Assembly (NCBI GenBank): GCA_016235555.1
Contig: JACRKC010000094.1
Span: 1-64,000, forward strand
Source of the DNA: Verrucomicrobiota bacterium
GTDB lineage: Bacteria; Verrucomicrobiota; Verrucomicrobiia; Opitutales; Opitutaceae
DNA: 64,000 bases
Reading direction: 5' to 3'
In this document: piece after piece, positions 348 through 28,966 of the stretch
Numbering within the stretch: position 1 is the stretch's first letter
Layout: each line of letters begins with the position of its first letter
Program-made: the position numbers and the translations under genes
Notes under the pieces: model-generated
What the model saw: the letters and a program-made list of their open reading frames with translations, nothing else
What the model was told of the DNA's origin: nothing
The model's database searches: none

Positions 348-2162
348 ATGAGCTTGACCCTCCCGTTCCGACCGCGGCTGTTCGACGCCGTGCGGGATTA
401 CTCGGCGGCGCATTTTCGCCGCGATCTTCTCGCCGGCTTCAACGTGATGATCCTGGCGTTTCCGCTGTCGATGGCCTTTGCCATCGCCGCGGGCGTGAAA
501 CCGGAACAAGGGCTCCTCACCGCGATCATCGGCGGCGCGATCATCGCGGCGCTCAGCGGCTCGCGCGTGCAGATCGGCGGCCCGACCGGCGCCTTCGTGA
601 TCATCACCTACAGCGTGCTGCAAGCGCACGGGCCCGGCGGGCTCGTCGTCTGCACGATGCTCGCCGGGGCGATTCTCTGCCTGATGGGCGCCGCCCGGTT
701 CGGATCGGTGATCCGGTTCATCCCGTATCCGGTCTCCCGCGCGTTCACCAAGGGCATCGCGATCCTCATCCTCGCCTCCCAGATCAAGAACTTCTTCGGC
801 CTCGACGTGGCCAAGGCGCCCGTCGATTTCCCGGGCAAGCTCGCGATGCTCGCGACGCACCTCGACGGCATCCATTGGCCGACGGTCGCGCTCGGGGTCG
901 CCTCGGTGGCGATCATGGGGCTGTGGCCGGTGCGGTTCTCGCGCTACGTGCCCGGCTCGTTCGTGGGCCTCGTGTGCGGCACGGTCGCCGTCGGGCTCTT
1001 CGGCCTGCACGAACACTGGCACGTGGCGACGATCGGCTCGGCCTTCGGCGAGATTTCGCGCAGCCTGCCGCTGCCGCACCTGCCCGCCTTCGATGTCCAG
1101 ACGCTCCCGCAGCTCGTGCAGCCCGCCTTCACGATCGCGATGCTGGTGGCGATGCAGGCCCTGCTCTGCGCCGTGGTGACGGACGGCATGCTGGACGAGC
1201 GTCACGATTCGAATCAGGAGCTGATCGGCCAGGGCATCGCCAATCTCGTCACGCCGCTCTTCGGCGGCATCCCCGCCACCGGCGCCGTCGCGCGCACCAT
1301 CGCCAACGTCCGCGCCGGCGCCGCCACCCCGGTCGCCGGACTCGTCCACTCCGCGCTCCTGGTCGCCCTGCTGCTCCTCGTCGCGCCGCTGGCGAAACAC
1401 ATCCCGCTGGCGACGCTCAGCGCCGTGCTGATCGTCGCGGCATTCCGGATGATTTCGTGGAAACAGTTCCTGCGACTCGGCCGCTGGCCGCGCAGCGACT
1501 CGACGGTGTTCCTGGCCACGTTTGCGCTCACCATCCTCACGGACCTCACGGTGGCGGTCGAAGTCGGTGTCGTGCTCGCCGCGCTCCTGATGGTGAAGCG
1601 CATCTCCGAGACCTCGCAGATCACCGCGGTTGACGAGACGACCGAAACCGAAGGCTCGCAGCACTCGCTCATCGGCCGGGAGATTCCGCCCGGCGTGCTC
1701 GTGTTTCGCGTGTTCGGCGCGTTCTTCTTCGGTGTGGTCGACAAGCTCGACGACGAATTGAAGCGCGCGAAGCAGGAACCCGAAGTGCTCATCCTGCGCG
1801 TGCGCAAGGTGCTCGCGATCGACGCCACCGGCCTGCAGGCCCTGGAAGATTTGCACGCGAAGCTCCGGGCCAAGGGCAAGCACCTCATCCTGAGCGCGCC
1901 GCATACGCAGCCGCTCGCCGTGATGGTGAATTCCGGGTTCATCGACCGGATCGGCGAGGAGAACGTGTGCCCGCACATCGCCGCGGCCCTCGAGCGGGCG
2001 CGCGCCATCCTCGGCCTGCCGCCGGCGCCGGAATCGCACGACGACAATGCTCCGCTCCAATCGCAGAAACTCCAACTCGAGGCGGCGCACCGCGAACTGT
2101 CGGAGGCGGTCGCACGCGCCGGCAAGCTGCTCGGCGAAACGAAATCGGCGCCACGGAGCTGA
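348..2162 (+). CDS. SulP family anion transporter with C-terminal STAS domain
   Basis: This 604-residue inner-membrane protein belongs to the SLC26/SulP family, which moves sulfate, bicarbonate or other anions with Na+ or H+. The N-terminal three quarters are hydrophobic, with the family segment GPTGAFVII near residue 85. A soluble STAS domain follows at about 440-555 and a charged helical tail ends the protein. The ATG at 348 was chosen because the family alignment begins there and the upstream reading frame is low complexity. The next gene downstream, beyond a palindromic repeat, starts an Ehr-type membrane complex. A bicarbonate or sodium link to that complex is inference only. Substrate cannot be read from the sequence. 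Confidence 0.88.
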   Translation: MSLTLPFRPRLFDAVRDYSAAHFRRDLLAGFNVMILAFPLSMAFAIAAGVKPEQGLLTAIIGGAIIAALSGSRVQIGGPTGAFVIITYSVLQAHGPGGLVVCTMLAGAILCLMGAARFGSVIRFIPYPVSRAFTKGIAILILASQIKNFFGLDVAKAPVDFPGKLAMLATHLDGIHWPTVALGVASVAIMGLWPVRFSRYVPGSFVGLVCGTVAVGLFGLHEHWHVATIGSAFGEISRSLPLPHLPAFDVQTLPQLVQPAFTIAMLVAMQALLCAVVTDGMLDERHDSNQELIGQGIANLVTPLFGGIPATGAVARTIANVRAGAATPVAGLVHSALLVALLLLVAPLAKHIPLATLSAVLIVAAFRMISWKQFLRLGRWPRSDSTVFLATFALTILTDLTVAVEVGVVLAALLMVKRISETSQITAVDETTETEGSQHSLIGREIPPGVLVFRVFGAFFFGVVDKLDDELKRAKQEPEVLILRVRKVLAIDATGLQALEDLHAKLRAKGKHLILSAPHTQPLAVMVNSGFIDRIGEENVCPHIAAALERARAILGLPPAPESHDDNAPLQSQKLQLEAAHRELSEAVARAGKLLGETKSAPRS

Positions 2163-2340: not shown

Positions 2341-4296
2341 ATGAGTCCCGGATCGTGGCTGCTCGGCGGCGCGCTCGGCCATCTGGCCGGCATGCTGGCC
2401 AGCCGGCGTGCGTCCCGACTCTGGCTGCCGGCCACGCTGGCCGGCACGGTCGCCGCCCTCGTCGCCGCGCTGCTGATCCTGGGCGGGGATTCGCCGTGGG
2501 ACTGGCGCAGCGGGTTTTCCGTCGCCGGCGATCCGCTGCACCTGCGGCTTGACGGCCTGAGCGCGTTCTTCCTCGTGCTCGTCACGATCGTGGTCGGCGG
2601 TGGCGCCGTTTACTCCCGCGCCTACTGGACTGATGCGGCGCATCCGCGTTCGGCCGCCGCCGGGCGGGCGTGGTGGAACGCGCTCGCGCTGAGCCTCGGC
2701 TTCGTCCTCGTGGCCGCAAACGGCCTGCACTTCCTGCTCGGCTGGGAGCTCTTCACGCTCGCCGCGTATTTCCTGATCACGCTCGACCGCCAGCGCGGTG
2801 AGGTGCGCGCGGCGGGCTGGCTTTATCTCGGCGCCTCGCACGTCGGCACGCTCGCGCTCTTCGCGTTTTTCGCGGGACTCGCGGCGCAAACCGGCGGCTG
2901 GGAACTCGGGCCGATGCGGGAGCGCACGGAGCTCGCACCGCTCTTCTGGCTGGCGCTTTTCGGCTTCGGGCTGAAATCCGGCATGTTTCCGCTGCACATC
3001 TGGCTGCCCTCGGCGCACGCCAACGCTCCGAGCCACGTCTCCGCGATTCTCTCCGGGGTCACGATCAAGCTGGGCATCTACGGGCTCGCGCGTTTCACCG
3101 GCTGGCTGCCCGTGCCGGCGGCGGCCGGCTGGACGATCGCGATCCTCGGCGTGGCGAGCGCGGTCCTCGGCGTGGCGTTTGCCCTCGGGCAGCACGATCT
3201 CAAGCGCCTGCTCGCCTACCACAGCGTCGAGAACATCGGGATCATTCTCATCGGGCTCGGTTTCGCCGTCGTGGCGGCCGGCCAGGGCACCGACGCCGCG
3301 GGCTGGGGCCAGCTCGCGCTCGCAGGCGGCTTGCTGCACGTCTGGAATCACGGGCTGTTCAAGGCGCTGCTCTTCCTCGGCGCCGGCTCGGTGCTGCATG
3401 CGACGGGCACGCGCGAGATGAGCCGGCTCGGCGGACTCTGGCGCGCGATGCCGTGGACGGCCTCGCTCTTCGGCCTCGGCGCCATCGCGATTTCCGGGCT
3501 GCCGCCCCTCAACGGCTTCGTCAGCGAGTGGCTCGTCTATCTCGGGCTCTTCGACGCCACGCGTTCCGCCGGGCCGGTCGCATGGGCGGTCGTGCCCGCG
3601 GCCATTTTGCTCGGGATGACGGGCGCGCTCGCCCTCGCCTGCTTCGTCAAGGTGTGCGGCGTGGTATTTCTCGGCGCGCCGCGCAGCGCCGCCGCCGCCC
3701 ACGCGCACGAATGCGGACCGGCCATGCGCGGACCGATGCTCCTGCTCGCCGGCGGCTGTGTTGCCATCGGGCTCGCGCCGGTGTGGGTCTGGCCCGCGGT
3801 CGCGCAGGCGGTCGGCACCTGGGCGCCAGCGTGGGCCGGCCTCGCCGCTCCGCCGTCGCTCGCCGTGCTCGGCTGGACGCACCTCGCGCTCGCGGCGCTC
3901 GCCGTCACCGGAGTCGTCGCGCTGCGTCGGCGGACCGGGCGCCAACCGGTCCCACGCCACGTCACCTGGGATTGCGGTTACGCGGCGCCCGCCGCGCGGA
4001 TGCAATACACCGCCGGCTCGTTCGCCGCGATCATCACCGAGTGGTTCGACTGGATTCTGCGGCCGGTGCGGCATGCGCAGGCGCCGGACACGCCGTTTCC
4101 CGCGCAGGCGAGCTGCACCTCCCACACCCCGGAGACCGTCCTGGAGCACGTCGTGACGCCGGTCGGCGGCGCGGTGATGCGCCTTTCCGCCGCGGCGCGC
4201 CGGCTCCAGCACGGGCGGCTCGAAGCGTATCTCCTTTACCTGCTCGTCGGCATCGCGGCGCTGGCCGTGATCGTGGCGACGGATGTTGGCCAATGA
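2341..4296 (+). CDS. Ehr/Hyf-type proton-translocating subunit, NuoL/HyfB-like (copy 1)
   Basis: This 651-residue polytopic membrane protein belongs to the proton-conducting NuoL/M/N family and is the antiporter-like module of the complex encoded downstream. Key channel residues are visible: Glu136 in GWELF, Lys212 in LKSGMFPLHIW, Lys243 in TIKLGIYG and Lys341 in HGLFKALLF. They match the Glu/Lys pattern of proton pumps in the family. The C-terminus carries the conserved WDCGY segment seen in HyfB-like proteins. The ATG at 2341 follows repeat copy A1. A close paralogue begins at 5125 and is collinear with this protein along its length. Function as an ion pump is known for the family; the ion (H+ or Na+) is not determinable here. 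Confidence 0.88.
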   Translation: MSPGSWLLGGALGHLAGMLASRRASRLWLPATLAGTVAALVAALLILGGDSPWDWRSGFSVAGDPLHLRLDGLSAFFLVLVTIVVGGGAVYSRAYWTDAAHPRSAAAGRAWWNALALSLGFVLVAANGLHFLLGWELFTLAAYFLITLDRQRGEVRAAGWLYLGASHVGTLALFAFFAGLAAQTGGWELGPMRERTELAPLFWLALFGFGLKSGMFPLHIWLPSAHANAPSHVSAILSGVTIKLGIYGLARFTGWLPVPAAAGWTIAILGVASAVLGVAFALGQHDLKRLLAYHSVENIGIILIGLGFAVVAAGQGTDAAGWGQLALAGGLLHVWNHGLFKALLFLGAGSVLHATGTREMSRLGGLWRAMPWTASLFGLGAIAISGLPPLNGFVSEWLVYLGLFDATRSAGPVAWAVVPAAILLGMTGALALACFVKVCGVVFLGAPRSAAAAHAHECGPAMRGPMLLLAGGCVAIGLAPVWVWPAVAQAVGTWAPAWAGLAAPPSLAVLGWTHLALAALAVTGVVALRRRTGRQPVPRHVTWDCGYAAPAARMQYTAGSFAAIITEWFDWILRPVRHAQAPDTPFPAQASCTSHTPETVLEHVVTPVGGAVMRLSAAARRLQHGRLEAYLLYLLVGIAALAVIVATDVGQ

Positions 4297-4417
4297 ATGC
4301 GCAGACGCCCGCCGTGAGTCCGCTAGGATTGCCGCTCGTTTTCCATCCGGACGCGTGGGCCAGGCCGAGGGTTTGACGCCGCGACCGGAATCCTGAAACC
4401 TCCAGCTCTCCCACGCC

Positions 4418-5128
4418 ATGTATCTCAACCTCGTCCAGATTGCCGAATCGTTCGGCGTGTCCGAGGCGACCATCGAGGGCTGGATTCGCGCGGAGGGCCT
4501 GCCGCACATCGCGGAACGCGGCCGCCTCCTCTTCGATCGCGCGCAGGTGGCGAACTGGGCGGCGGCGCGCGGGCTCGCGGCGCAGGTGGGTTTCCTCGCC
4601 GACACCACCACCGCCTTCGCGACCGGCTGGCGGCTCGAGACTCTGCTGCGCGCCGGCCGCATCTGGCGCGACGTGCCGGCGGCCGACGTGACCGCGACGT
4701 TTGCGCGCATCGTCGACGCGCTGCCGGGCACGAGTCCGTCGCTCCGACAACTGGTGACGCAGCGTCTGCGCGCCGCCGGCGGCGTGACGATGGCGCCGGT
4801 CGGCGGCGGCTTCGCGCTCCCCCACCCGAGCGCGCGCGTCGCACTCGGGCGCGATGCGGGCGTCGTGGGCCTGCTGCTGTTGCGCGAACCGCTCGTGCTG
4901 CCCGAGCCGCCGCCCGATGAGGTGCCGCTCACCCGGCTGTTGTTCTTCATCGCGCCGTCGCCCCGCGCGCATCTGGACTTGCTCGGCCGGCTCAGCCGCC
5001 TGCTCGGACGCAGTCCGCTGCGCGAGTTGCTCGCGCGCCACGCCAGCGACGAGGAAATTTTTCTGGCCGTCGGCGCCTTTGATGCGAGCGCGTCGGCCCC
5101 TGCCGCCAGCCGGGAGGTAAGCTCATGA
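4418..5128 (+). CDS. Excisionase-like helix-turn-helix fused to PTS EIIA (Ntr/fructose-type) domain
   Basis: The first ~48 residues form an excisionase/MerR-like helix-turn-helix (IAESFGVSEATIEGWI, then a wing ending DRAQVANW). Residues ~75-220 resemble EIIA of the fructose/nitrogen PTS class. His136 in GGFALPHPSAR sits where the phosphorylated histidine of that family lies. The 236-residue protein is coded between two NuoL-like pumps and overlaps the second by ATGA, so it is translated with the complex. EIIA-Ntr proteins normally relay phosphorylation state to partner proteins, so a regulatory or sensing role for the complex is plausible but inferred. The DNA-binding half could instead serve only as a protein-interaction module. 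Confidence 0.75.
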   Translation: MYLNLVQIAESFGVSEATIEGWIRAEGLPHIAERGRLLFDRAQVANWAAARGLAAQVGFLADTTTAFATGWRLETLLRAGRIWRDVPAADVTATFARIVDALPGTSPSLRQLVTQRLRAAGGVTMAPVGGGFALPHPSARVALGRDAGVVGLLLLREPLVLPEPPPDEVPLTRLLFFIAPSPRAHLDLLGRLSRLLGRSPLRELLARHASDEEIFLAVGAFDASASAPAASREVSS

Positions 5129-7092
5129 CGCCCGGTCCGCTGCTGCTTTTCGCCGCGGCGGGCCTCACGGCCGGCCTCGTCGCCGGCCGCCGCCACGCCC
5201 CGGCGTGGCTCGGGTTCACCCTCGCCGGTGCCGTGGCGGCACTCGTCGCGGCGGCGCAGTTGCTGCTCGGCGGCGCGCCGTGGGAATGGCGGAGCGAGTT
5301 CGCCGTCGCCGGCCAGCCGCTCCACCTGCGGCTCGACGCGCTGGGCGCGTTGTTCCTCGCCCTCGTCGCGGTCGTCGGCGGCGCGGGCTCGGTCTACGCC
5401 CACGGCTACTGGAGCGATCGGGACTACCCGCAGTCCGCGCCGCGCGGCCGGTTGTGGTGGAACACGCTGCTGCTGAGCCTCGGCGCCGTCCTGCTCTCGT
5501 GGAACGGCCTGCATTTCCTCATCGCGTGGGAACTGTTCACGGTCGCCGCGTTTTTCCTCATCACGCTGGAGAACCAGCGGCGCGACGTGCGCGCGGCGGG
5601 CTGGCTCTACCTCGCGGCCTCGCACCTGGGCACGATGTGCCTGTTTGCGTTCTTCGCCGCGCTGGCGGCGCGCACCGGCAGTTGGGAACTCGGGCCGATG
5701 CGCGAACGCGCCGATCTGGCGCCGCTCTTCTGGCTCGCGCTCGTCGGCTTCGGCCTGAAGGCCGGCATGTTTCCCCTGCACATCTGGTTGCCCTCGGCCC
5801 ACGCCAACGCCCCGAGCCACGTCTCCGCGATCATGTCGGGCGTCACCATCAAGCTCGGCATCTACGGCCTGCTCCGCACCGCCGGCTGGCTGCCCGTGCC
5901 CGCCGCGGCACCCTGGACGCTTATCGTGCTCGGCGCGGTCACCGCGCTGCTCGGCATCGCGTTTGCGCTGGCCCAGAGCGACGTCAAACGCCTGCTCGCC
6001 TACTGCTCGGTCGAGAACATCGGGATCATTCTCATCGGGCTCGGGGGCGCGCTGCTCGCCGCAGCCGATGGTTCGACTTCGCTCACCGCAGGCGCCGCGT
6101 GGGGCCGCCTCGCGCTGGCCGGCGCCCTGCTGCACGTCTGGAATCACGGGCTGTTCAAATCGCTGCTCTTCTTTGGCGCGGGCTCGGTGCTGCACGCGAC
6201 GGGCACGCGCGAGATGAGCCGGCTCGGCGGACTGTGGCGCGCGATGCCATGGACCGCGTCGCTGTTCGCGCTCGGCGCCGTCGCGATCTCCGGGTTGCCG
6301 CCGCTCAATGGCTTCGTCAGCGAGTGGCTCGTCTACCTCGGCCTGTTCGACGCCGTCACCAGCCGCAGCCCCGCCGCGTGGGCCGCGCTGCCCGCGGCGA
6401 TCATGCTCGGGGTGACCGGTGCGCTCGCGCTCGCGACGTTCGTGAAGGCGGGCTCGCTGATTTTCCTCGGCGCTCCGCGCACCGCCGCCGCCCGCGACGC
6501 GCACGAATGCAGCCCGTGGATGCGCGGCCCGATGGTGGCCGTCGCCGCCGCCTGCGGGGCGATCGCGCTCGCGCCGGCGCTGTGCTGGCCGCTCATCGCC
6601 CGCGCCGCCGGCGCGTGGCAACCGGGTTGGGCGGACCTGACGCCACCGGCGTCGCTCTTCACGCTCGGCGGCATGCAGGTGGCGCTCGCGTTGCTCGCGT
6701 TCGCGGCGGGCTTCGCGCTGTGGCGGCGCGCGCGGGCCGACGACGTGACGCGTCAGCTCACGTGGGACTGCGGCTACGTCGTCCCCACCGCCCGCATGCA
6801 ATACACCAGCGATTCGTTCGCCGGGATCGCCGGCGGCTGGTTTGCGTGGATCCTTCAACCGCAGCGCCGGCTGCGGCGGCCGCGGGGGCTGTTTCCCGAA
6901 GGGGCGAGTCGCATGGAGCGTGTGCCGGAGACCGTGCTCGAGCGCCTGATCGGGCCGGTGGCCGCAGTCGTCATGCAGGCATCGCTCGCGGTGCGCCGGC
7001 TCCAGCATGGGCGGCTGCAATACTACATCGCCTACGTGGTCGTCGGCCTCGCCGGCCTCGGAACGCTCGTCGTGCTGGGAGGTGGCTCATGA
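5125..7092 (+). CDS. Ehr/Hyf-type proton-translocating subunit, NuoL/HyfB-like (copy 2)
   Basis: This 655-residue membrane protein is a close paralogue of the subunit at 2341-4296. It shares the same order of landmarks: PLHLRLDALGALFL, AWELFTVAAFFLI, LKAGMFPLHIWLPSAHA, TIKLGIYG, HVWNHGLFKSLLF and a C-terminal WDCGY. The proton-channel Glu and Lys residues are all kept, so both copies look functional. Its start overlaps the stop of the EIIA-like gene and its own stop overlaps the next start (ATGA), placing it in a tightly coupled operon. Two antiporter-like subunits of this kind in one operon suggest a complex with an extra ion-pumping module. Confidence 0.88.
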   Translation: MTPGPLLLFAAAGLTAGLVAGRRHAPAWLGFTLAGAVAALVAAAQLLLGGAPWEWRSEFAVAGQPLHLRLDALGALFLALVAVVGGAGSVYAHGYWSDRDYPQSAPRGRLWWNTLLLSLGAVLLSWNGLHFLIAWELFTVAAFFLITLENQRRDVRAAGWLYLAASHLGTMCLFAFFAALAARTGSWELGPMRERADLAPLFWLALVGFGLKAGMFPLHIWLPSAHANAPSHVSAIMSGVTIKLGIYGLLRTAGWLPVPAAAPWTLIVLGAVTALLGIAFALAQSDVKRLLAYCSVENIGIILIGLGGALLAAADGSTSLTAGAAWGRLALAGALLHVWNHGLFKSLLFFGAGSVLHATGTREMSRLGGLWRAMPWTASLFALGAVAISGLPPLNGFVSEWLVYLGLFDAVTSRSPAAWAALPAAIMLGVTGALALATFVKAGSLIFLGAPRTAAARDAHECSPWMRGPMVAVAAACGAIALAPALCWPLIARAAGAWQPGWADLTPPASLFTLGGMQVALALLAFAAGFALWRRARADDVTRQLTWDCGYVVPTARMQYTSDSFAGIAGGWFAWILQPQRRLRRPRGLFPEGASRMERVPETVLERLIGPVAAVVMQASLAVRRLQHGRLQYYIAYVVVGLAGLGTLVVLGGGS

Positions 7093-7997
7093 TCGTGTTC
7101 CTCGAATTTGTCGCGCGGCTCGTCGGCTGGCTCGTGCTGGCCCCGCTGCTGCCCGGCATCATCAACAAGGTGAAGGCGTGGGTCGGTGGCCGCCGCGGCC
7201 CGCCGGTGCTGCAACTTTACTACGACCTCGCGCGGCTGTGGCAAAAGGGCGTTGTGCTGAGCACGCTCGTGTCGCCGGGCTTCATCGCGGGCCCGGCCGT
7301 CGCGTGGGTCGCCGTGCTGGGCGCAGCGCTGCTGCTGCCGCTCGGACCGGTCGGCGCGGGGCTGAGTTTCCGCGGCGATGTGCTGCTCCTGATTTATCTG
7401 CTCGCGCTCGCCCGCTTCTGCACGGCGTGGGCGGCGATGGAAACCGGCTCCGCGTTCGAGGGCATGGGCGCCGCCCGCGAGGTGAGCTACGCCGTGCTCG
7501 CCGAGGCCGCGATCATCACCGCGGTGCTCGCGCTCTGCGTGCACAGCGGCAGCGTCTCGCTCGCCACCATGCTCAACCCCGCCGCCGGCGCCGGGGCCGT
7601 GCTGCTCGCCGCCGGGCTCTTTGCCGTGCTGCTCGCGGAAAACTGCCGCGTGCCCTTCGACGATCCCAACACGCACCTCGAGCTCACGATGATCCATGAG
7701 GTCATGATTCTCGATCACAGCGGTCCGCCGCTCGCCGCGATCCTGCACGGCGCCTCGATCAAGCTCCTGCTCTTCGCCACGCTGCTGGTCGAGGCCGTGG
7801 TGCCGCTCGGCGGGCTCTCGCGACCCGCGGCGGCCGGCGTGCTCGCGGCCGGCGTGCTCGTGGTCACCGTGGGCGTCGGGCTCGTCGAGTCGCTGCTGGC
7901 GCGGCTCGCGTTTCGCCGCGTGCCCCTGCTGCTGACGACCGCTTTCCTGCTGTGTCTGTTCGCGCTGCTGGTCGCGTGGAAAGGCGGCGCCGCATGA
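7089..7997 (+). CDS. Ehr/Hyf-type membrane anchor subunit, NuoH/HyfC-like
   Basis: The 302-residue hydrophobic protein is the NuoH (complex I subunit 1) homologue that joins the soluble redox arm to the membrane pumps. Family landmarks visible are the loop METGSAFEGMGAAREV near residue 120 and the acidic loop ENCRVPFDDPNTHLELTMI near 185, which in complex I lies at the quinone-chamber entrance. The start overlaps the previous stop as ATGA, and the stop overlaps the next start in the same way. Length is normal for HyfC/HycD. Confidence 0.9.
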   Translation: MIVFLEFVARLVGWLVLAPLLPGIINKVKAWVGGRRGPPVLQLYYDLARLWQKGVVLSTLVSPGFIAGPAVAWVAVLGAALLLPLGPVGAGLSFRGDVLLLIYLLALARFCTAWAAMETGSAFEGMGAAREVSYAVLAEAAIITAVLALCVHSGSVSLATMLNPAAGAGAVLLAAGLFAVLLAENCRVPFDDPNTHLELTMIHEVMILDHSGPPLAAILHGASIKLLLFATLLVEAVVPLGGLSRPAAAGVLAAGVLVVTVGVGLVESLLARLAFRRVPLLLTTAFLLCLFALLVAWKGGAA

Positions 7998-8635
7998 ACG
8001 CCTACCTCAACCTCCTCATCGGCCTCGCGATCGGTTTGAACCTGCTCGCGCTCGGCAGCAGCCGGCTGCCGTCGCTCATCAACGCGGTCGCCGTGCAGGG
8101 CATGGCGCTGGGCGCGATGCCGTTTCTGCTGGAGGAACACATCAACTGGATGGTCGCACTCGTCGCCTGCGCCACCGTCGCGGTGAAGGGTTTCGTGATC
8201 CCGATCCTGCTCCGCCGGGCGATGCGCACCGCCAACATCGAGCGCGAGGTCGTCCCGTCGATCGGCTACGTGCCGTCGCTGCTCCTCGGCGCCGGCGGCA
8301 CGATCGCCGCGGTGGCGTTTGCGCGCACGCTGCCGTTGCTGCCCGAGCACGCGGGCTCGCTGCTCGTGCCGGGTTCGCTCGCGTCGGTGCTGACGGGCTT
8401 CGTGCTGCTGATCGGCCGCTCCAAGGCCATCTCGCAGGTTTGCGGCTACCTGATTCTGGAAAACGGCATTTATCTCTTCGGCCTGCTGCTCATCCACGCG
8501 ACCCCGCTGCTCGTCGAGGCGGGCATCCTGCTCGACCTCACGGTCGGCGTGTTCGTCATCGGCATCATCGTGGATCGCATCCAGCGCGCGTTCGACTCGC
8601 TCGACACGCGCAAACTCACCGTGCTCCGCGAATGA
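7994..8635 (+). CDS. Ehr/Hyf-type membrane subunit, HyfE-like
   Basis: The 213-residue protein is almost wholly hydrophobic, with six or seven likely membrane segments. It matches the hydrogenase-4 component E family, whose C-terminal half resembles NuoK. A pair of Glu residues within membrane segments (VCGYLILENGIY and LVEAGILLDL) corresponds to the conserved NuoK-like acidic positions. ATGA overlaps with both neighbours show translational coupling. It is expected to sit between the NuoH-like and NuoL/N-like subunits. Confidence 0.85.
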   Translation: MNAYLNLLIGLAIGLNLLALGSSRLPSLINAVAVQGMALGAMPFLLEEHINWMVALVACATVAVKGFVIPILLRRAMRTANIEREVVPSIGYVPSLLLGAGGTIAAVAFARTLPLLPEHAGSLLVPGSLASVLTGFVLLIGRSKAISQVCGYLILENGIYLFGLLLIHATPLLVEAGILLDLTVGVFVIGIIVDRIQRAFDSLDTRKLTVLRE

Positions 8636-10074
8636 AAGCCCTCCTGCTCGTCCTCCTGCCTCTCGCCGGCGCCGCGCTCGCCGCCGTGTGGCCGAGCGAC
8701 CGCACGCGGCCGTGGCTGCTGCCGGTGGTCGGCGTGTTGCATGTGGCGCTCTCGCTCTGGCTGCTGTTCGTGCCGCCGCCGTTCGCGTCGACCGCGTGGT
8801 TCGCGTTCGATCCGCTGGCCCGCGCGGTGCTGCCCGCGGTCTCGCTGCTGTTCCTCGCCTGCGCCGCCTATGCGGTCCCCTACCTCGGCGTGCGCGCGGA
8901 GCGCTCGAACCGCGTGTTCGTCGCCACCTTCCTCGCCGTGCTCGGGCTGCTGAGCGCCGGCCACGGGGCGCGCCACCTCGGCCTGCTCTGGATCGCGACC
9001 GAGGGCGTCACGCTCGCCGCGGTGCCGCTCATCCACTTCAACGGCACGTCGCGCGCGTTCGAGGCGACGTGGAAATACCTCCTCGTCGGCGGCACCGGCA
9101 TCGCGCTGTCGCTGCTCGGCTCGTTCGCACTCGGCTACGCCTCGCTCTACGGCGGCGGCAGCGGCGACCTGACGGTCGCCGCGCTCGCGAGCCAGGGCGC
9201 CAAGCTTTCGCACCCGTGGGTGCTCGCCGCGTGGGTGCTCCTGCTCGCCGGCTACGGCACCAAGATGGGCCTCGCGCCGATGCACACGTGGAAACCCGAC
9301 GCCTACGGCGAGGCGCCCGGCATCGTCGGCGCGCTGCTCGCCGGCGGCGTCACCACGGTGGCGTTCACCGCGGTGCTGCGTGTGCGCGAGGTCGTCGCGG
9401 CGTCCGGCTCCGGCGCGATCGCCGATCGCACGCTGCTCGCGATCGGGTTGTTCTCGATGCTGGTGTCCGCGCTCTTCCTGCTGGGGACGCGCGACTTCAA
9501 ACGCATGCTCGCCTACTCGAGCGTGGAGCACATGGGCATCCTCGCCGTCGGCGCGGCGCTCGGCGCGGCAGGGGTGTATGCCGCGCTGTTCCACGTCTGG
9601 GGCAACAGCCTCACGAAGGGCGCGCTCTTCCTCAGCGCCGGCAACATCCGCCGCGCCGCCGGCGCGCGCACGATGGACGAGGTCAGCGGCATGTCCGCGA
9701 TCACGCCGCACTCGGCCGCGATTTTTATCACCGGCATGTTTGCCGTCACCGCGCTGCCACCGTTCGGGCCGTTCTTCAGCGAGCTCGGCATCGTGCGCGC
9801 GGCGTTTGGCGCGGACCGGCCGGGCACGGCCGCGATGTTCCTCGGTTGCCTGCTCTTTGTTTTCTTTGGTCTCACGCGACTCGTCTTTGCCATCGTCGAC
9901 GGCCGCCCGCGCGCGGCGTCGCGCGTCACCGGCCAGCGCTTCCCTGAAACCATGAGCGTCATCGTGCCGCCCCTCGTGCTCCTCGGTTTCTCGCTCTGGC
10001 TCGGCCTCGCCACGCCGGCAGTCCTGACCGAGGCGTGGGCCGGCGCCGTCGCCCAACTCTTCCCGACGCCATGA
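8632..10074 (+). CDS. Ehr/Hyf-type proton-translocating subunit, HyfF/NuoN-like
   Basis: This 480-residue polytopic protein is the third NuoL/M/N-family member of the operon. Motifs include a Glu in WIATEGVTLAAVPLIHF, a Lys in GYGTKMGLAPMHTWKPDA, SSVEHMGIL, and a Lys in HVWGNSLTKGALFLSAG. It is shorter than the two NuoL-like paralogues and more like HyfF. The start ATG overlaps the preceding stop (ATGA), and the stop overlaps the large-subunit start. Together with the two upstream copies it gives the complex three antiporter-like subunits. Confidence 0.88.
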   Translation: MKALLLVLLPLAGAALAAVWPSDRTRPWLLPVVGVLHVALSLWLLFVPPPFASTAWFAFDPLARAVLPAVSLLFLACAAYAVPYLGVRAERSNRVFVATFLAVLGLLSAGHGARHLGLLWIATEGVTLAAVPLIHFNGTSRAFEATWKYLLVGGTGIALSLLGSFALGYASLYGGGSGDLTVAALASQGAKLSHPWVLAAWVLLLAGYGTKMGLAPMHTWKPDAYGEAPGIVGALLAGGVTTVAFTAVLRVREVVAASGSGAIADRTLLAIGLFSMLVSALFLLGTRDFKRMLAYSSVEHMGILAVGAALGAAGVYAALFHVWGNSLTKGALFLSAGNIRRAAGARTMDEVSGMSAITPHSAAIFITGMFAVTALPPFGPFFSELGIVRAAFGADRPGTAAMFLGCLLFVFFGLTRLVFAIVDGRPRAASRVTGQRFPETMSVIVPPLVLLGFSLWLGLATPAVLTEAWAGAVAQLFPTP

Positions 10075-11582
10075 GCAGCGAAACCTCCTTCGCCCTGCTG
10101 GCCAACGCCACGAGCCTCCCGTGGGCCGCCCTGCCCGAATGGCCCGCGGCCGAATTCGTGCGCGCCACCGCTGCCGAACTCGATCGCGGCGCGCGGCTGT
10201 GCGCGTGGTTCGGTGTGCCGGGCGATGCGGGCACGCATCTCGTCGCCATCATCGCGTTCGACGCCGACAACACCCTCGCCGCCGCGCGCAGCGCGCCCTT
10301 CGCCGGGCATTACCCTTCGCTCACCGCCACCCATCCGCAGGCGCATTTGTTCGAGCGCGAAGTGTGGGAACAGCACGGCCTCGTCCCCGACGGCCACCCG
10401 TGGCTCAAGCCGGTGCGTCGCACCGACGCGGCCGGCACCGCGCCCGCCAACGGCGAGTTCTTCCGCGTCGACGGCCGCGAAATCCACGAAGTCGCCGTCG
10501 GCCCCGTGCACGCCGGCATCATCGAGCCGGGACACTTCCGCTTCCAATGCGCCGGCGAGGAAGTCCTCCATCTCGAAATCGCGCTCGGTTACCAGCACCG
10601 CGGCGCCGAGACCGGCCTCGCCGGCGGACCGCACCGCGCGACGCTCAGCCAGATCGAAACCGTCGCGGGCGACACCACCATCGGTCACGCGACCGCCTAC
10701 GCGAGCGTGCTCGAAGCGCTCGCCGGCACCGAGGCGCCGCTGCGCGCGCAGTGGCTCCGCGCCCTCGCGCTCGAACTCGAGCGCCTCGCCAATCACACCG
10801 GCGATCTCGGCGCGCTCGCCAACGACGTCGCGTTTCTCCCAACGTCAGCCGCGTGCGGAAAAATCCGCGGCGATTTTCTCAACCTCACCGCGCTCCTCTG
10901 CGGCAACCGCTTCGGCCGCGGCCTCGTCCGCCCCGGCGGCTGCCATCACGACCTCGAACCCGCGCGGGCGACGACGATGCTAGAGCGACTGCGCGTCGCC
11001 GTCGCCGACACCGAGCAGGCCGCCGGCTGGCTCTGGGACGCCGCCTCGGTGCGCGCGCGTTTCGAAAACACCGGCCCCGTCTTTGCGCCGCAAGCCACCG
11101 CCCTCGGCCTCGTCGGCCCGCCGGCGCGCGCCTGCGGCCTCGTGCGCGATGTCCGCTACGATCATCCCGCCGGCTGGTATCGCCTCGCGCAGGCGCCCGT
11201 CGCCGTCTGGCCCGGCGGCGATGTCTACGCGCGCGCCCGCGTGCGCTGGCTCGAGTTGCAGCGCTCCGGCCAGTTCCTGCTCGAGCAACTCGCCACGCCG
11301 CCCGACGGCCCGATCTTCGAAGCGCTGCCCGCGCCTGCCTGCCCTGAGCCTGTCTCACGGGCACCTGACACGCTCGCCGTCGCGCTCGTGGAGGGCTGGC
11401 GCGGCGAAATCTGCCACGTCGCGCTCACCGACTCCGCCGGAAAATTCCGCCGCTACAAAATCACCGACCCGTCCTTCCACAACTGGACCGGCCTCGCCCT
11501 CGCGCTCCGCGGCCAGGCGATCTCGGACTTTCCGCTCTGCAACAAGAGCTTCAACCTCTCCTACTGCGGCCACGATCTCTAG
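10071..11582 (+). CDS. Ehr large subunit, HyfG/HycE-like (NuoC-NuoD fusion) lacking the NiFe ligands
   Basis: The 503-residue protein fuses a NuoC-like N-terminal domain (EQHGLVPDGHPWLKPVR near residue 110) to a NuoD/hydrogenase large-subunit domain. In true group 4 hydrogenases a CGxC motif follows an ET/ER segment and a CxxC ends the protein, binding nickel and iron. Here the first reads ETVAGDTTIGHA (residues 196-207) with no cysteine. The C-terminus ends DFPLCNKSFNLSYCGHDL, whose cysteines are not spaced CxxC. H2 chemistry is therefore unlikely, and the protein fits energy-converting hydrogenase-related complexes. The stop codon TAG forms the start of an inverted-repeat arm (11580-11590). 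Confidence 0.85.
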   Translation: MSSETSFALLANATSLPWAALPEWPAAEFVRATAAELDRGARLCAWFGVPGDAGTHLVAIIAFDADNTLAAARSAPFAGHYPSLTATHPQAHLFEREVWEQHGLVPDGHPWLKPVRRTDAAGTAPANGEFFRVDGREIHEVAVGPVHAGIIEPGHFRFQCAGEEVLHLEIALGYQHRGAETGLAGGPHRATLSQIETVAGDTTIGHATAYASVLEALAGTEAPLRAQWLRALALELERLANHTGDLGALANDVAFLPTSAACGKIRGDFLNLTALLCGNRFGRGLVRPGGCHHDLEPARATTMLERLRVAVADTEQAAGWLWDAASVRARFENTGPVFAPQATALGLVGPPARACGLVRDVRYDHPAGWYRLAQAPVAVWPGGDVYARARVRWLELQRSGQFLLEQLATPPDGPIFEALPAPACPEPVSRAPDTLAVALVEGWRGEICHVALTDSAGKFRRYKITDPSFHNWTGLALALRGQAISDFPLCNKSFNLSYCGHDL

Positions 11583-11815: not shown

Positions 11816-12622
11816 ATGTTCGCCCTCGACACCCTCACCCACCGGCTGAAACGCGGCTGCGAGACGATGGCGTATCCCGACGGCCCGCCGCCCGCGCTGC
11901 CCGATCGGCACGGCGGCGCGCTGCGCGTCGATGGCGCGCGATGCACCGACGGCTGCGGCGCGTGCATCGAGGTCTGTCCGACCGATGCCATCACTCGCCC
12001 CGCCAACCAACCCATCGCGCTGGATCTCGGCCGTTGCATCTTCTGTCACGCGTGCATCTCGGCCTGCGGCCCGGCCGCCATCACGCCCACCGGCGACCAC
12101 CGCATGGCCGTGCGCCGCCGCGAGGATCTCGTGCTCGGCGCCGCGGGCGGCGAACAACTCCGCCTCGCCGCCGCGCTCGACGAAAAGCTCCGCAAGCTCT
12201 TCGGCCGCTCGCTCCGCCTCCGCCAGGTCAGCGCCGGCGGCTGCAACGCCTGCGAGGCCGACACCAACGTCCTCGGCACCATCGGCTGGGACCTCGGCCG
12301 CTTCGGCATCCAGTTCGTCGCCTCGCCGCGCCACGCCGACGGCCTGCTCATCACCGGGCCCGTCTCGCGCAACATGGAACTCGCTCTGCGCAAAACCTGG
12401 GACGCCGTGCCCGCACCGAAGATCGTCATCGCCGTCGGCGCCTGCGCGATCGCCGGCGGGCCGTTCGTCGGCCGCCCGGAAGTGCGCGACGGCGCCGACG
12501 CCATCGTGCCCGTCGATCTCTACATACCCGGCTGCCCCCCGCACCCGCTCACGATCCTCGACGGCCTGCTGCGCCTCCTCGGCCGCCTGGAAACCGGTGA
12601 CCGCGCCCCGACTCCGAGGTAG
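11816..12622 (+). CDS. Ehr iron-sulfur subunit: 2[4Fe-4S] ferredoxin fused to NuoB/HyfI-like domain
   Basis: This 268-residue protein combines two roles that are separate genes in E. coli hydrogenases. Residues 43-84 carry two cluster motifs: Cys43/47/50/54 with CxxxC first spacing, then Cys74/77/80/84 with normal CxxCxxCxxxC spacing. From about 130 on it is a NuoB/HycG-type small subunit, with GGCNACEADTN (Cys143, Cys146), GACAIAGGPF and IPGCPPHP. These supply four cysteines for the proximal [4Fe-4S] cluster next to the catalytic subunit. It completes the electron path of the Ehr complex. It is separated from the other subunits by repeats, and its stop TAG lies inside the next repeat arm. 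Confidence 0.88.
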   Translation: MFALDTLTHRLKRGCETMAYPDGPPPALPDRHGGALRVDGARCTDGCGACIEVCPTDAITRPANQPIALDLGRCIFCHACISACGPAAITPTGDHRMAVRRREDLVLGAAGGEQLRLAAALDEKLRKLFGRSLRLRQVSAGGCNACEADTNVLGTIGWDLGRFGIQFVASPRHADGLLITGPVSRNMELALRKTWDAVPAPKIVIAVGACAIAGGPFVGRPEVRDGADAIVPVDLYIPGCPPHPLTILDGLLRLLGRLETGDRAPTPR

Positions 12623-15300: not shown

Positions 15301-15861
15301 ATGTCCTTCGAAACTTCGCTCGCCGAGACCACGCGCACGTTTCAAGCCCTCACGACCATCCGCCCCGCGATCGATCGCGCCGGCGATCTCATGCTCGCGA
15401 CGCTGCGCCGCGGCGGGAAGCTGCTCATTTGCGGCAACGGCGGCAGCGCCGCCGAGGCCGCGCACTTCGCCACCGAACTCGTCGGTCGCTACGCGAAAAC
15501 CCGCCGCTCGCTCCCGGCCGTCGCCCTCTCGTCGGACGGCTCGCTCCTCTCCTGCATCGGCAACGATTTCGGCTACGACCAGGTTTTCTCGCGCCAGGTC
15601 TCGGGCCTCGCCCAGCCCGGCGATCTCGTCGTCGTGCTCACGTCGAGCGGCAACTCCGCCAACATTCTCGCCGCGCTCCACGAGGCGAAGAAACTCGGCC
15701 TCGACTCCGTCGCCTTCCTCGGCCGCGGCGGCGGTAAGTGCAAGGGCCTCGCGACCGTCGATCTCATCATGCCCGGCGAGAGCGGCGCCGCCGCCCAGGA
15801 AGCGCATCTCTTCCTGATCCATCATTTCTGCGACCGCATCGACGAAGCGTTTCCGAACTGA
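15301..15861 (+). CDS. gmhA: SIS-domain phosphoheptose isomerase (GmhA-like)
   Basis: The 186-residue protein matches sedoheptulose-7-phosphate isomerase, the first step of heptose synthesis for lipopolysaccharide. The SIS fold is shown by LLICGNGGSAAEAAHFATEL and the phosphate-binding VVVLTSSGNSANI. SSDGSLLSCIGNDFGYD is typical of GmhA, and the C-terminal QEAHLFLIHHFCD carries the expected Glu and His. The ATG directly follows a palindrome. Presence of a heptose enzyme agrees with a Gram-negative envelope. A DiaA-like role is possible but less likely given the full active-site pattern. Confidence 0.88.
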   Translation: MSFETSLAETTRTFQALTTIRPAIDRAGDLMLATLRRGGKLLICGNGGSAAEAAHFATELVGRYAKTRRSLPAVALSSDGSLLSCIGNDFGYDQVFSRQVSGLAQPGDLVVVLTSSGNSANILAALHEAKKLGLDSVAFLGRGGGKCKGLATVDLIMPGESGAAAQEAHLFLIHHFCDRIDEAFPN

Positions 15862-15874
15862 AAACGAGACCCCT

Positions 15875-15988
15875 CGTGCCAGCGTAGCGGCCGACGTAAG
15901 GAGGCCGTCGCACTCGCGACTCGTAGTCGGTCGGCCTTGCGGCCCCGGCTGCGACCACCCTTCGGCGCTCCGGTCGCGGACAAAGCAG
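15875..15988. repeat. GC-rich repetitive gap between gmhA and the rhomboid gene
   Basis: The gap between two convergent genes holds GTAGCGGCCGACG, GAGGCCGTCGC and related inverted pieces around CGACTCGTAGTCG. It resembles a decayed member of the palindromic repeats seen elsewhere in the window. No gene or terminator with a T-tract is visible. Confidence 0.5.
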
Positions 15989-15989
15989 C

Positions 15990-17488
15990 CTACTTCTTCT
16001 TGGCGTTGGCCGGTGTCGACGTCGTCAGAATTCGCACCGCCTCCGCTCTCGCCTCGCCATACGCCGCCAACGCCGCGGCGTCACCGTCTCGTGCCGCTCG
16101 CAGCAGAAGATCCGCGGCGTCGAGTCGCGCCTGCACGTAGCGCTTGATCAACGCCCGTCGCTCCGCGGTGGCGCGCCCCGGCGTCAGCGTCAGCGCGTCG
16201 AGGCGGCGTCCGATCTCGCGGTAGAACGGCACGACGTCCTGCTCGACGAACTGGGACCGCCGGCCGCCGACTGACGCCACTGGCCCACCGCCGCGTCCTG
16301 CTTTTCCAACAGCTTCGCCTCGTTCTCGCGAAAGCCCTTGATCGCCGTCGACCAGCCGAACTCCTCCCGAAACGAAAAATCGAAACGCGGAGCGGCCGTC
16401 ACGCCCACCGCCACCAGCATCGCGACCGCCGCGGCGGCGGCGCCGAATTTTCCGCGCCACAGTTGGCGCCGCTTTTCCCGATCGATGGGCATCGCCGTGA
16501 GCCACCCGAGCCCGATGCCGGCGACAAAACCGCCGACGTGCGCCGCGTTGTCGATGCCGGGATAGACCAGCCCGAACAGCAGGTTGTAGGCACCGAAGGA
16601 CACCGCGCTGTTCTGTAGCGGCTTGAACACGATGCGCGGGATCGCGTGTTTCTCCTTCAGCACGAAGCCCAGCATCATGCCGTAGACGCCGAACACCGCC
16701 CCCGAGGCGCCCGCACTCCACACGGCTTTCTGCCCGTGCCAGACGAGGCTCAGCAGTCCGCCCGCTACGCCGCTCGCGAGATAGTTGAACGCATAAAACG
16801 CGCGCCCCTGCAGCCGCTCCAGCAACTGTCCCGCTTGAAACAGCGCCCACATGTTCAGCAGCAGGTGCATCGCCCCGTAGTGCATGAACATGCTCGTCAG
16901 CAGCCGCCACCACTCGCCATCCGTCGTCGCCGCGCCGTGGTTGGCGCCGAAGCGGATGTAGGGATCCATGCTCGCGACGCTCATCCAGCCCGCCCCGTAG
17001 GCCCCGGCCATCACCACAAACACCGCGACATTCAGCCCGAGGAGGACGCCGGTGACCGACTCGAACGGCGCACGGGCGCCGGGCAACTGCCGGAGTTTCT
17101 CCTGAAACACCGCCGCCGAAACATGCCCCGCGTCGACCGTCTTGGGCAGGAGTTGCACCACCGCCCGCGCCCCCTCGGCGTCGCGGCAATGAAAGACGAA
17201 CGGATTTTTCTGCGCGCCCGCCCGCCCCTTCGTCGTCGAAAACCACACCGTCCGCCCCGTCGCGTCGACGTTGGTGATATCGGCCGCCCCATACTCGAGC
17301 TCGATCTGCTCTCCGCCGACGAGCGCCCGGCGCCGCCCGGAAAAACGGAAGGTCCCGTCGCTCTTCGCCGTGAACACGCCGCGCTCGTAAAGATCGGGAT
17401 TCTGGCCGTTGTGGCGGTCACCCTGATACTCGACCGCAAAGGAGATCTCGGGGCTGGGGGTGGCGGCAGGCAGCGGCGCAGGATCCAT
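15990..17488 (-). pseudogene. Rhomboid-family intramembrane serine protease, frameshifted near the 3' end
   Basis: A soluble N-terminal domain of ~110 residues precedes a six-helix rhomboid core. Catalytic features are MHYGAMHLLLNMWAL, the serine motif SAGASGAVFGVYG and the histidine motif AAHVGGFVAGIGLGWL. The core is intact in one frame, which would end at 16190 with a low-complexity Ser/Arg tail. In the neighbouring frame a well-formed continuation (QFVEQDVVPFYREIGRRLDA onward) runs to 15990 and ends TPANAKKK. The shift lies near 16253-16270 in a GGCGGCCGGCGG tract. The lesion removes only the C-terminal soluble tail, so protease activity may survive. A sequencing error or programmed slippage are alternatives. 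Confidence 0.75.
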
Positions 17489-27158: not shown

Positions 27159-28703
27159 TCACGCGTGTGCCTCCTTCACGCCGGCCATCATCAGGCCGAG
27201 TTTTTCCTCGGTGGCCTCGGCGCGCGCGACTTCGCCGACGATCTCACCGCCATTCATCACCAGAATGCGGTCAGCCAATCCGAGGATTTCTTCGAGTTCC
27301 ACGGAGACGATCAGCAACGCCTTCCCGGCATCGCGGAGCGCGATCAGTTTCTTGTGGATGAACTCGATCGCGCCGATGTCCACGCCGCGCGTCGGCTGGC
27401 CGACGATCAGCACGCGCGGGTCGACGTCGATTTCGCGGGCGAGCACGAGCTTCTGCTGGTTGCCGCCGGAGAACGCCGAGATTCGCTGCGCCGGCAGCGC
27501 CGGACGCACATCGTGCGCGGCCATCTTTTGTTCGCACGCGCCGCGAATCGCTGTGCGGTCGAGCAACGGGCCGCGGTGGTAAGCCGGACCGTCGTGGTAG
27601 CCGAGGATCGCGTTGTCCTCGGCGGAAAAACTCATCACGACACCCAGGCGCAACCGATCCTCCGGCACGTGGGCGAGGCCGAGGGTCCGGCGCGCGTGCG
27701 GATCGAGGTGCTCGCGCACGAGATCGCGCCCGCCGAGCTCGATCGCTCCGCGCGTCGGCCACCGGATGCCCGCGAGGGCCTCCAGCAGCTCGGTCTGGCC
27801 GTTCCCCGAAACACCCGCCACGCCGACGATCTCGCCCGCCCGCAAGTCGAAGCTCACGCCCTTCACGCGGGCGACTCCGAAGCGGTCGCGCACTTCCAGA
27901 TTGCTCACGCGCAGCAGGGCATCGCCGGGGCGTGCGGGGGCTTTTTCGACGCGCAACAGCACGGCGCGGCCAACCATTTTTTCGGCGAGCTCGCGCGGCG
28001 AGGTGTCACGCGTGGCGACCTCGCCGACGACGGCACCCTGGCGCATCACGGTCACGCGGTCGGTGACGGCCATGATCTCGCGGAGCTTGTGCGTGACGAG
28101 AATCACGGATTTTCCCTCGGTGCGCAGGCGGCCGAGCATCTTGAACAGCGCGTCGGCCTCCTGCGGGGTGAGCACCGCGGTCGGCTCGTCGAGGATGAGG
28201 ATCTCCGCGCCGCGGTAGAGTGCTTTCAGGATCTCGACGCGCTGCTGCACGCCGACCGGCAGCTCGGAGATGACGGCGTCGAGCGGCACTTCGAGGCCGT
28301 AATCGCGGGCGAGTTTTTCCAGCTCCGCGCGCGCGTGCGCGAGACTGCCCGCGAGGAGCGCGCCCCGCTCGACGCCCAGCACGACGTTTTCCAGCACCGT
28401 GAAATTCTCCACGAGCATGAAGTGCTGGTGCACCATCCCGATGCCCGCCGCGATGGCATCGTGCGGCGCATGGATGTCGACGCGCCGCCCTTTCACGAGG
28501 ATCTCACCGGCGTCGGCGCGGTGAAACCCGTAGACGATATTCATGAGCGTGGACTTGCCCGCGCCGTTTTCGCCGATGAGCCCGTGGATGCTGCCGCGCG
28601 CGACCGAGAACGAGATCGCGCGGTTCGCGTGAACGCTACCGAAGCGCTTGTCGATGCCGCGGAGTTCGAGCGCGGGGGCGGTTGGATTTATTCTTTCAAC
28701 CAC
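27159..28703 (-). CDS. Nucleoside-type ABC transporter ATP-binding protein (two ATPase domains)
   Basis: The 514-residue protein holds two ABC ATPase domains, as in sugar and nucleoside importers (NupA/YufO-like). The first has Walker A GENGAGKST, a signature-like region LPVGVQQRVEILKAL and Walker B ILILDEPTAVLTP. The second has the degenerate Walker A GVSGNGQTE, signature FSGGNQQKLVLAREI and VLIVGQPTRGVD. The start is a GTG at 28703 that lies at the edge of a long repeat; no better start is visible downstream. It energises the two permeases that follow. Confidence 0.9.
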   Translation of the reverse strand: MVERINPTAPALELRGIDKRFGSVHANRAISFSVARGSIHGLIGENGAGKSTLMNIVYGFHRADAGEILVKGRRVDIHAPHDAIAAGIGMVHQHFMLVENFTVLENVVLGVERGALLAGSLAHARAELEKLARDYGLEVPLDAVISELPVGVQQRVEILKALYRGAEILILDEPTAVLTPQEADALFKMLGRLRTEGKSVILVTHKLREIMAVTDRVTVMRQGAVVGEVATRDTSPRELAEKMVGRAVLLRVEKAPARPGDALLRVSNLEVRDRFGVARVKGVSFDLRAGEIVGVAGVSGNGQTELLEALAGIRWPTRGAIELGGRDLVREHLDPHARRTLGLAHVPEDRLRLGVVMSFSAEDNAILGYHDGPAYHRGPLLDRTAIRGACEQKMAAHDVRPALPAQRISAFSGGNQQKLVLAREIDVDPRVLIVGQPTRGVDIGAIEFIHKKLIALRDAGKALLIVSVELEEILGLADRILVMNGGEIVGEVARAEATEEKLGLMMAGVKEAHA

Positions 28704-28966
28704 GGATGGACACCGATGGACACGGATTCAAAACCACCCCAGCACAGTCGTGAAAATGGCCGCAGATAAAGATCCTCGGGCAAGCCCCGAGGCATGGGAC
28801 CAATCCCACCAGACAACCTTCGACCACGCATCGTAGCGGCGAGCGCCAGCGAGCCGACGCTCTTCGACTCGCTGGCGCTCGTCGCTACTCAACCACGGCG
28901 CAGCCTGCTTCGCGGGATCGGGCCCAACGAGAATGAATCTGTGTCCATCCGTGTTCATCCGTGGTG
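28698..28966. repeat. Long nested inverted repeat between the BMP gene and the ATPase gene
   Basis: Outer arms AACCACGGATGGACACCGAT and its complement near 28935-28966 lie about 270 bp apart. A second strong palindrome, GTAGCGGCGAGCGCCAGCGAG with its partner (28833-28889), is nested inside. No coding potential is seen. The left arm overlaps the GTG start of the ATPase gene, and the right arm ends nine bases from the BMP stop. Confidence 0.85.

Follow-up and report, generated by a model that had tools for sequence, protein, structure and literature searches.

What is a protein that joins a helix-turn-helix (HTH) domain to an EIIA domain of the phosphotransferase system (PTS) doing inside an operon for a complex I-like ion pump? 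The gene that raises this question, HTH-EIIA (4418..5128, + strand; one open frame, 236 aa), lies in the 64,000-nucleotide stretch of Verrucomicrobiota DNA analysed here (the window), between two genes for antiporter-type membrane subunits. The reading preferred below, to which we give a probability slightly above one half (about 0.52), is that the protein would be a dedicated EIIA switch of the pump, a partner acting at the protein level in a phosphorylation-dependent way.

All genes of the operon are on the + strand. The contig starts at window base 1, and the first visible gene encodes a SulP-family anion transporter with a STAS domain (348..2162, the start at 348 being our choice; Pfam Sulfate_transp 269 bits, STAS 51.8 bits). 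It is followed by B1, a HyfB-like antiporter-type membrane subunit (2341..4296, start estimated; Proton_antipo_M 169.6 bits) whose best NCBIfam model, hydrogenase 4 subunit B, stays below cut-off, then by the HTH-EIIA gene and by B2, a second HyfB-like subunit (5125..7092; Proton_antipo_M 158.9 bits). Next are C, a NuoH/HyfC-like subunit (7089..7997; NADHdh 94.2 bits), E, a HyfE-like subunit (7994..8635; NCBIfam hydrogenase 4 membrane subunit 68.1 bits, below the cut-off of 136), F, a HyfF/NuoN-like antiporter-type subunit (8632..10074; Proton_antipo_M 154.8 bits), G, a NuoC-NuoD-like large subunit lacking the NiFe cysteine ligands (10071..11582; Complex1_49kDa, Complex1_30kDa), and I, a two-cluster ferredoxin fused to a NuoB-like subunit (11816..12622; Oxidored_q6 92 bits, Fer4 domains). 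Among 103 large-subunit ORFs taken from the window and its related loci, not one carries either NiFe cysteine pair motif (3 to 7 rows of the alignment, depending on the column, have no letters at the cysteine columns), and the operon is therefore classed as Ehr, not hydrogenase. The name follows the usage of PMC6349859, passages of which describe Ehr complexes (Mbx-type and related) as having group 4 hydrogenase-like subunits without NiFe ligands together with antiporter-like subunits. Genes for antiporter-like, NuoH-, NuoB- and NuoD-like subunits are all present, and the complex is predicted to be a redox-driven, complex I-like ion pump.

As the earlier note had said, the HTH-EIIA gene overlaps the second pump gene: its stop TGA (5126-5128) and the ATG of B2 (5125-5127) form a 4-bp ATGA overlap at 5125-5128. 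On the other side B1 ends 121 bp before HTH-EIIA (4296 to 4418), and the overlap is only with the downstream HyfB-like gene. A short ORF (4293-4376), starting ATGAATGCGCAG, overlaps the B1 stop, and its start is common to several Opitutaceae loci. A GTAAGAT or CTAGGAT block, common to 12 aligned gaps from mostly Opitutaceae loci, comes after the short-ORF start and hints at an internal promoter, one without a clear -35.

The HTH-EIIA protein has an HTH_17-like domain at residues 2-51, a linker at about residues 56-72, and an EIIA fold at about residues 70-223 that includes His136 and His185. The HTH scores 28.8 bits against the Pfam HTH_17 cut-off of 27 (residues 2-51) and 19.6 against the NCBIfam 'excise' cut-off of 28.8, which is not reached. 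PTS_EIIA_2 (PF00359) is borderline in the single sequence, with 27.1 bits against a cut-off of 27 (residues 109-215; 28.1 in a genome-wide search), and the EIIA part was therefore examined by further routes. Among PDB sequences phmmer matches PtsN 3urr (E = 3.1e-5), whose active-site 'PH' aligns with P135-H136. An AlphaFold2 model built with 86 relatives has a mean pLDDT of 86.3 with a linker disordered near residues 62-69, and its residues 70-223 match EIIANtr 4gqx (Z = 13.8, 142 residues, 2.9 A) and 3urr (Z = 13.6), which bears out the EIIA domain that had been proposed. The HTH part of the model resembles the phage terminase small subunit 7lwr (Foldseek, 54 columns). Residues 68-236 also resemble anion-exchanger cytoplasmic domains (band 3, Z about 10), probably through a shared fold only; the operon includes a gene for a SulP anion transporter.

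Gly131, Ala133, Pro135, His136, Asp167 and His185 are invariant in 86 aligned proteins, seven of them from a sister lineage described below. His136 and His185, the latter of which we take from EIIA structures to be the second active-site histidine, are kept in all 149 relatives (80/80, 48/48 and 21/21), and Gly131, Pro135 and Asp167 are likewise invariant in 149/149. This argues against an EIIA part that is no longer phosphorylated, in a protein whose role in the complex would be structural or in its assembly. Such a role would fit the borderline Pfam score and the long stem branch of the window-type proteins (2.9 changes per column; one clade, 100/100, in a tree of 95 proteins, 26 of them window type, with a root for drawing only), but the presence of EI and HPr also speaks against it, and we regard it as improbable.

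Phosphotransfer control, as put forward in the earlier note, calls for homologues of EI and HPr, and the host genome encodes both: a single HPr, which carries GIHARPA and a conserved Ser region, and an EI of 587 aa with only the three PEP-utiliser domains (one of two family matches, the other being a 671-aa frame). It also encodes one HPr kinase, one PTS EIIC and a free PtsN-like EIIA. The HPr and EI families are present in 30 of 30 sampled carrier genomes, which is a necessary condition only, because carrier genomes alone were examined. The EINtr of a PTSNtr has an N-terminal GAF domain, whereas the 587-aa EI has no extra sensor domain; together with the HPr kinase this may point to PEP/energy status rather than to PTSNtr, and for the link to nitrogen state that had also been suggested no evidence was found in these proteins. 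Elsewhere in the host genome, an EIIA-DacZ_P-DAC fusion (L238:10662-12005, - strand) lies downstream of a same-strand nuoA-like gene; the EIIA on this diadenylate cyclase-like protein suggests putative PTS-gated c-di-AMP synthesis.

A close orthologue of HTH-EIIA was found in 7 of the 223 genomes of an order sample (the window's genome counted), and all seven adjoin Ehr subunit genes. Because these window-type orthologues, 46-76% identical, recur at the same place, the association of HTH-EIIA with Ehr is more than chance. From a one-genome-per-species scan the best 80 of 92 relatives were kept as named loci (L026-L105), and 79 of these 80 have an Ehr gene within 1.5 kb on the same strand; in the exception, L047, the contig ends 11 bases past the HTH-EIIA gene and a SulP gene lies upstream. 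The synteny across Verrucomicrobiota for which the earlier note had proposed a search is thus present. The 80 loci include isolates such as Geminisphaera colitermitum TAV2 as well as MAGs titled Gemmatimonadota, Planctomycetota and Desulfovibrionales, although MAG titles can be wrong. As a negative control, 20 stretches were chosen around weak EIIA matches (PtsN-like or fused), and Ehr genes were found at 0 of the 20; generic PtsN was rejected as the identity of the EIIA part on this count.

Two Thermodesulfobacteriota MAG loci (L101 and L105) nest inside the Verrucomicrobiota lineage in the tree and have an identical operon order, a probable case of whole-cassette transfer between phyla. A cassette that seems to cross phyla could carry along a regulator with no function for the operon, simply left in a mobile unit; its retention at 46-76% identity, with the active-site residues unchanged and Ehr genes beside it at 79 of 80 loci, makes such hitch-hiking hardly credible.

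In the matches over the window plus the loci of both sets (n=82), the next gene 3' of HTH-EIIA is HyfB-like in 65, C in 15, F in 1 and the contig end in 1. The distance from the HTH-EIIA stop to the HyfB start is zero or less in 57 of the 65, with 44 of these at -4, as measured from the start nearest the stop, a choice that favours overlaps. HTH-EIIA is not tied to one HyfB copy, since the gene stays where the second HyfB is absent and C comes next. A same-strand SulP gene is present in 22 of the 80 named loci and absent from 58, some of them cut by contig ends; SulP is therefore considered accessory. Its position beside the window gene, the 22 same-strand loci and its place directly upstream of HTH-EIIA in 11 of 82 would suit an EIIA that controls the SulP transporter instead of the pump, with SulP and pump cooperating; set against Ehr genes in 79 of 80 loci, however, the 58 loci without a same-strand SulP make this very improbable.

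The association has limits within Ehr. A second Ehr-like cluster, about 40% identical, lies beside the first at L026:16-7629, L017:15280-18694, L056, L074, L081, L082 and L092, and no HTH-EIIA match was found within these second clusters. When the Ehr large-subunit loci of 387 phylum genomes were banded by score to the window's large subunit, HTH-EIIA was found within 16 kb of 9/9 loci at 800 bits or more, 26/47 at 500-800, 7/49 at 380-500, 1/18 at 200-380 and 0/10 below 200, with some of the misses due to split contigs. Among 20 stretches around large subunits with no nearby match, L232 has a broken HTH-EIIA before HyfB, and the other 19 have none at the threshold used. HTH-EIIA thus belongs to a single Ehr clade and is not general among Ehr complexes. 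The counts in distant groups (7/49, 1/18 and 0/10) reject the statement that every Ehr carries it, and because it is mostly absent there, Ehr can work without it.

A profile search of the 387 phylum genomes also revealed further HTH-EIIA proteins at about 26-30% identity to those of the window type. The sister set (all 41 listed matches, E from 4e-33 to 4e-24, in 40 stretches) has 29 genes directly upstream of a HyfB-like gene, 10 without an Ehr neighbour and 2 at contig ends, and a weaker-match set (21 genes in 20 stretches, a few matches of that band left out) has 7 that head Ehr operons, 1 cut off before a HyfB-like fragment and 13 with no such link. One of the 10 sister genes without an Ehr neighbour stands ahead of an Mrp/Mbh-type cluster (L168:1353-6429, - strand; MnhE, MbhD, antiporter subunit), which puts this kind of switch next to a different ion-pumping machine. 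Another of the 10, at L161:4297-4950 (+), is a second HTH-EIIA copy and faces the 3' end of an Ehr operon already headed by one. The Ehr operon of L030 has, between F and G, a weak HTH-EIIA-like match of a third type (15729-16370, +; 28.8 bits). HTH-EIIA genes at L198, L204 and L208 adjoin PtsN-type, CBS-type and cation antiporter-type proteins by eye. Seven of the 80 named loci, and L167 from the phylum set, have both types: the sister-lineage gene precedes the first HyfB-like gene and the window-type gene precedes the second. Each HyfB there thus has its own HTH-EIIA.

The two lineages differ in their HTH domains. The HTH carries a mean net charge of -1.9 in the window type (range -5 to 1, n=80) vs +2.4 in the sister lineage (-3 to 6, n=48) and +2.4 in the remaining proteins (-4 to 6, n=18), with ranges that overlap, some sister proteins being acidic too. 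Helix 16-26 of the window type has an average net charge of -2.05 (n=80). Recognition-helix positions 20 and 21 are mostly Glu and Asp/Gly in the window type vs Tyr and Arg in the sister lineage, and position 38 is Leu in the window type vs Arg. The HTH is nevertheless the most conserved part of the window-lineage protein, with a mean top-residue frequency of 0.83 vs 0.71 for the EIIA part.

They differ as well in the DNA upstream. Of 56 non-redundant regions upstream of HTH-EIIA-headed operons, 23 contain the direct repeat GACA-N6-GACA, where six shuffles gave at most 8 for any dyad, vs 4 of 410 control upstream regions from the same loci, and its spacing peaks at exactly 10 bp and next at 20 bp (7/56). 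By leading gene, the repeat is present in 22 of 44 operons of the sister lineage (Fisher p about 2e-21 against the controls) vs 1 of 12 of the window type (p = 0.01 between lineages), and it is absent from all SulP-led (0/20), HyfB-led (0/36) and internal gap (0/62) regions. Because one set had served both to discover the motif and to test it first, held-out regions were examined, and 9 of 21 upstream regions, in a set with some near-copies, carry it. Inspection by eye shows one orientation overlapping a TTGACA-like -35, with the other near the start. The repeat is also present at orphan HTH-EIIA genes (L171-L173; held-out L198, L204 and L205-L208), which ties it to the HTH-EIIA gene and not to Ehr. 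The sole match to the pattern in the window, at 28709 (within 28700-28728, GATGGACACCGATGGACACGG), looks by eye to be part of a dispersed repeat and was left uncounted. No dyad exceeded the shuffles in the regions before SulP-led (n=20) and HyfB-led (n=36) operons. Internal gaps before the window-type gene have GGAG-N7-ATGA and GCCA-N5-GCCA above the shuffles; these are read as probable ribosome-site and start-codon conservation.

The sister-lineage protein is likely a DNA-binding, PTS-controlled autoregulator, with the GACA repeat as its candidate operator. BldC, a MerR-like HTH, binds direct repeats head to tail with 9 bp per protomer (PMC5859096, from passages of that paper); the repeats, like those in front of the sister-lineage genes, are spaced by about one turn of the helix. 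The differences are that the BldC repeat is 9 bp vs 10 bp here, that BldC has no EIIA and that the window lineage has no such site. DNA binding by the window-lineage protein is doubtful, because its HTH is acidic and its operons lack the direct repeat of the sister lineage. The HTH regulator envisaged in the earlier note calls for a changed reading in this lineage, in which only 1 of 12 led operons has the repeat.

Chlamydia belongs to the same superphylum as the Verrucomicrobiota. The product of Cpn0061 (ptsN_2) is annotated 'PTS IIA protein + HTH DNA-binding domain' (PMC5723314), a likeness in two-domain make-up that is by annotation only and for which the table entry gives no ion-pump link. 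That annotation in Chlamydia pneumoniae is one point in favour of a window protein that would regulate transcription of its own operon under PTS control, through an altered site, where phosphorylation would shift DNA binding and leave the pump untouched directly. An HTH_17 score above cut-off, an HTH that is the best conserved part of its lineage (0.83 vs 0.71), a strong candidate operator in the sister lineage and the compatibility of an acidic HTH with DNA binding point the same way. Still, the HTH and its recognition helix are acidic, SulP- and HyfB-led operons have no enriched upstream dyad over shuffles, and the gene sits inside the operon coupled to HyfB, all of which leave such a regulator unlikely, if well short of improbable.

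A role at the protein level is favoured because the basic residues are lost, the repeat is nearly absent, the gene is inside the operon and its stop overlaps the HyfB start. PtsN of E. coli serves as the precedent on which this control model is given to the window lineage: in its unphosphorylated form it binds and inhibits the K+/H+ antiporter YcgO (PMC11808508). Alike are the EIIA fold, the phosphorylatable His, the ion-transporting target and a role that is apparently regulatory and not sugar-importing. PtsN is free and global, whereas the window EIIA is fused to an HTH and encoded in the operon of its candidate target, which is a multi-subunit redox-driven pump. Known Ehr complexes have no EIIA partner mentioned in the passages of PMC6349859, whereas the window has a dedicated HTH-EIIA and two HyfB-like subunits.

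In the dedicated switch preferred here, phosphate from PEP would pass via EI and HPr to His136 of a protein made in step with the HyfB-like subunit, to which its production may be coupled through the overlapping start and stop codons. The window-lineage HTH, with its basic DNA-contact positions lost, may serve as a docking or dimer module, while the sister-lineage HTH, heading Ehr operons, would remain a DNA-binding autoregulator. Pump activity would then follow PEP and the energy state, and control could run in either direction. A tentative extension, which we hold at somewhat less than even odds, is that the window lineage arose as a second lineage from a DNA-binding HTH-EIIA autoregulator whose HTH turned to protein docking, with the PEP relay setting ion pumping directly, beside or instead of transcription; in two-copy operons one protein would serve expression and the other activity.

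No description of an EIIA partner of an Ehr complex was found in the open-access literature searched. In a PTSNtr review (PMC13104625) the words hydrogenase, complex I, helix-turn-helix, Verrucomicrob and NADH do not occur, and antiporter occurs once, in the references.

These comparisons suggest that a PEP relay may control the Ehr pump in many Verrucomicrobiota. EIIA proteins steer single transporters, and the switch proposed here, if true, would bring redox-driven ion pumping within the reach of PTS signalling. The GACA repeat offers a candidate operator for HTH-EIIA regulators, and an EIIA borne in the operon would give a handle on the role of Ehr complexes, which is untested in most bacteria.
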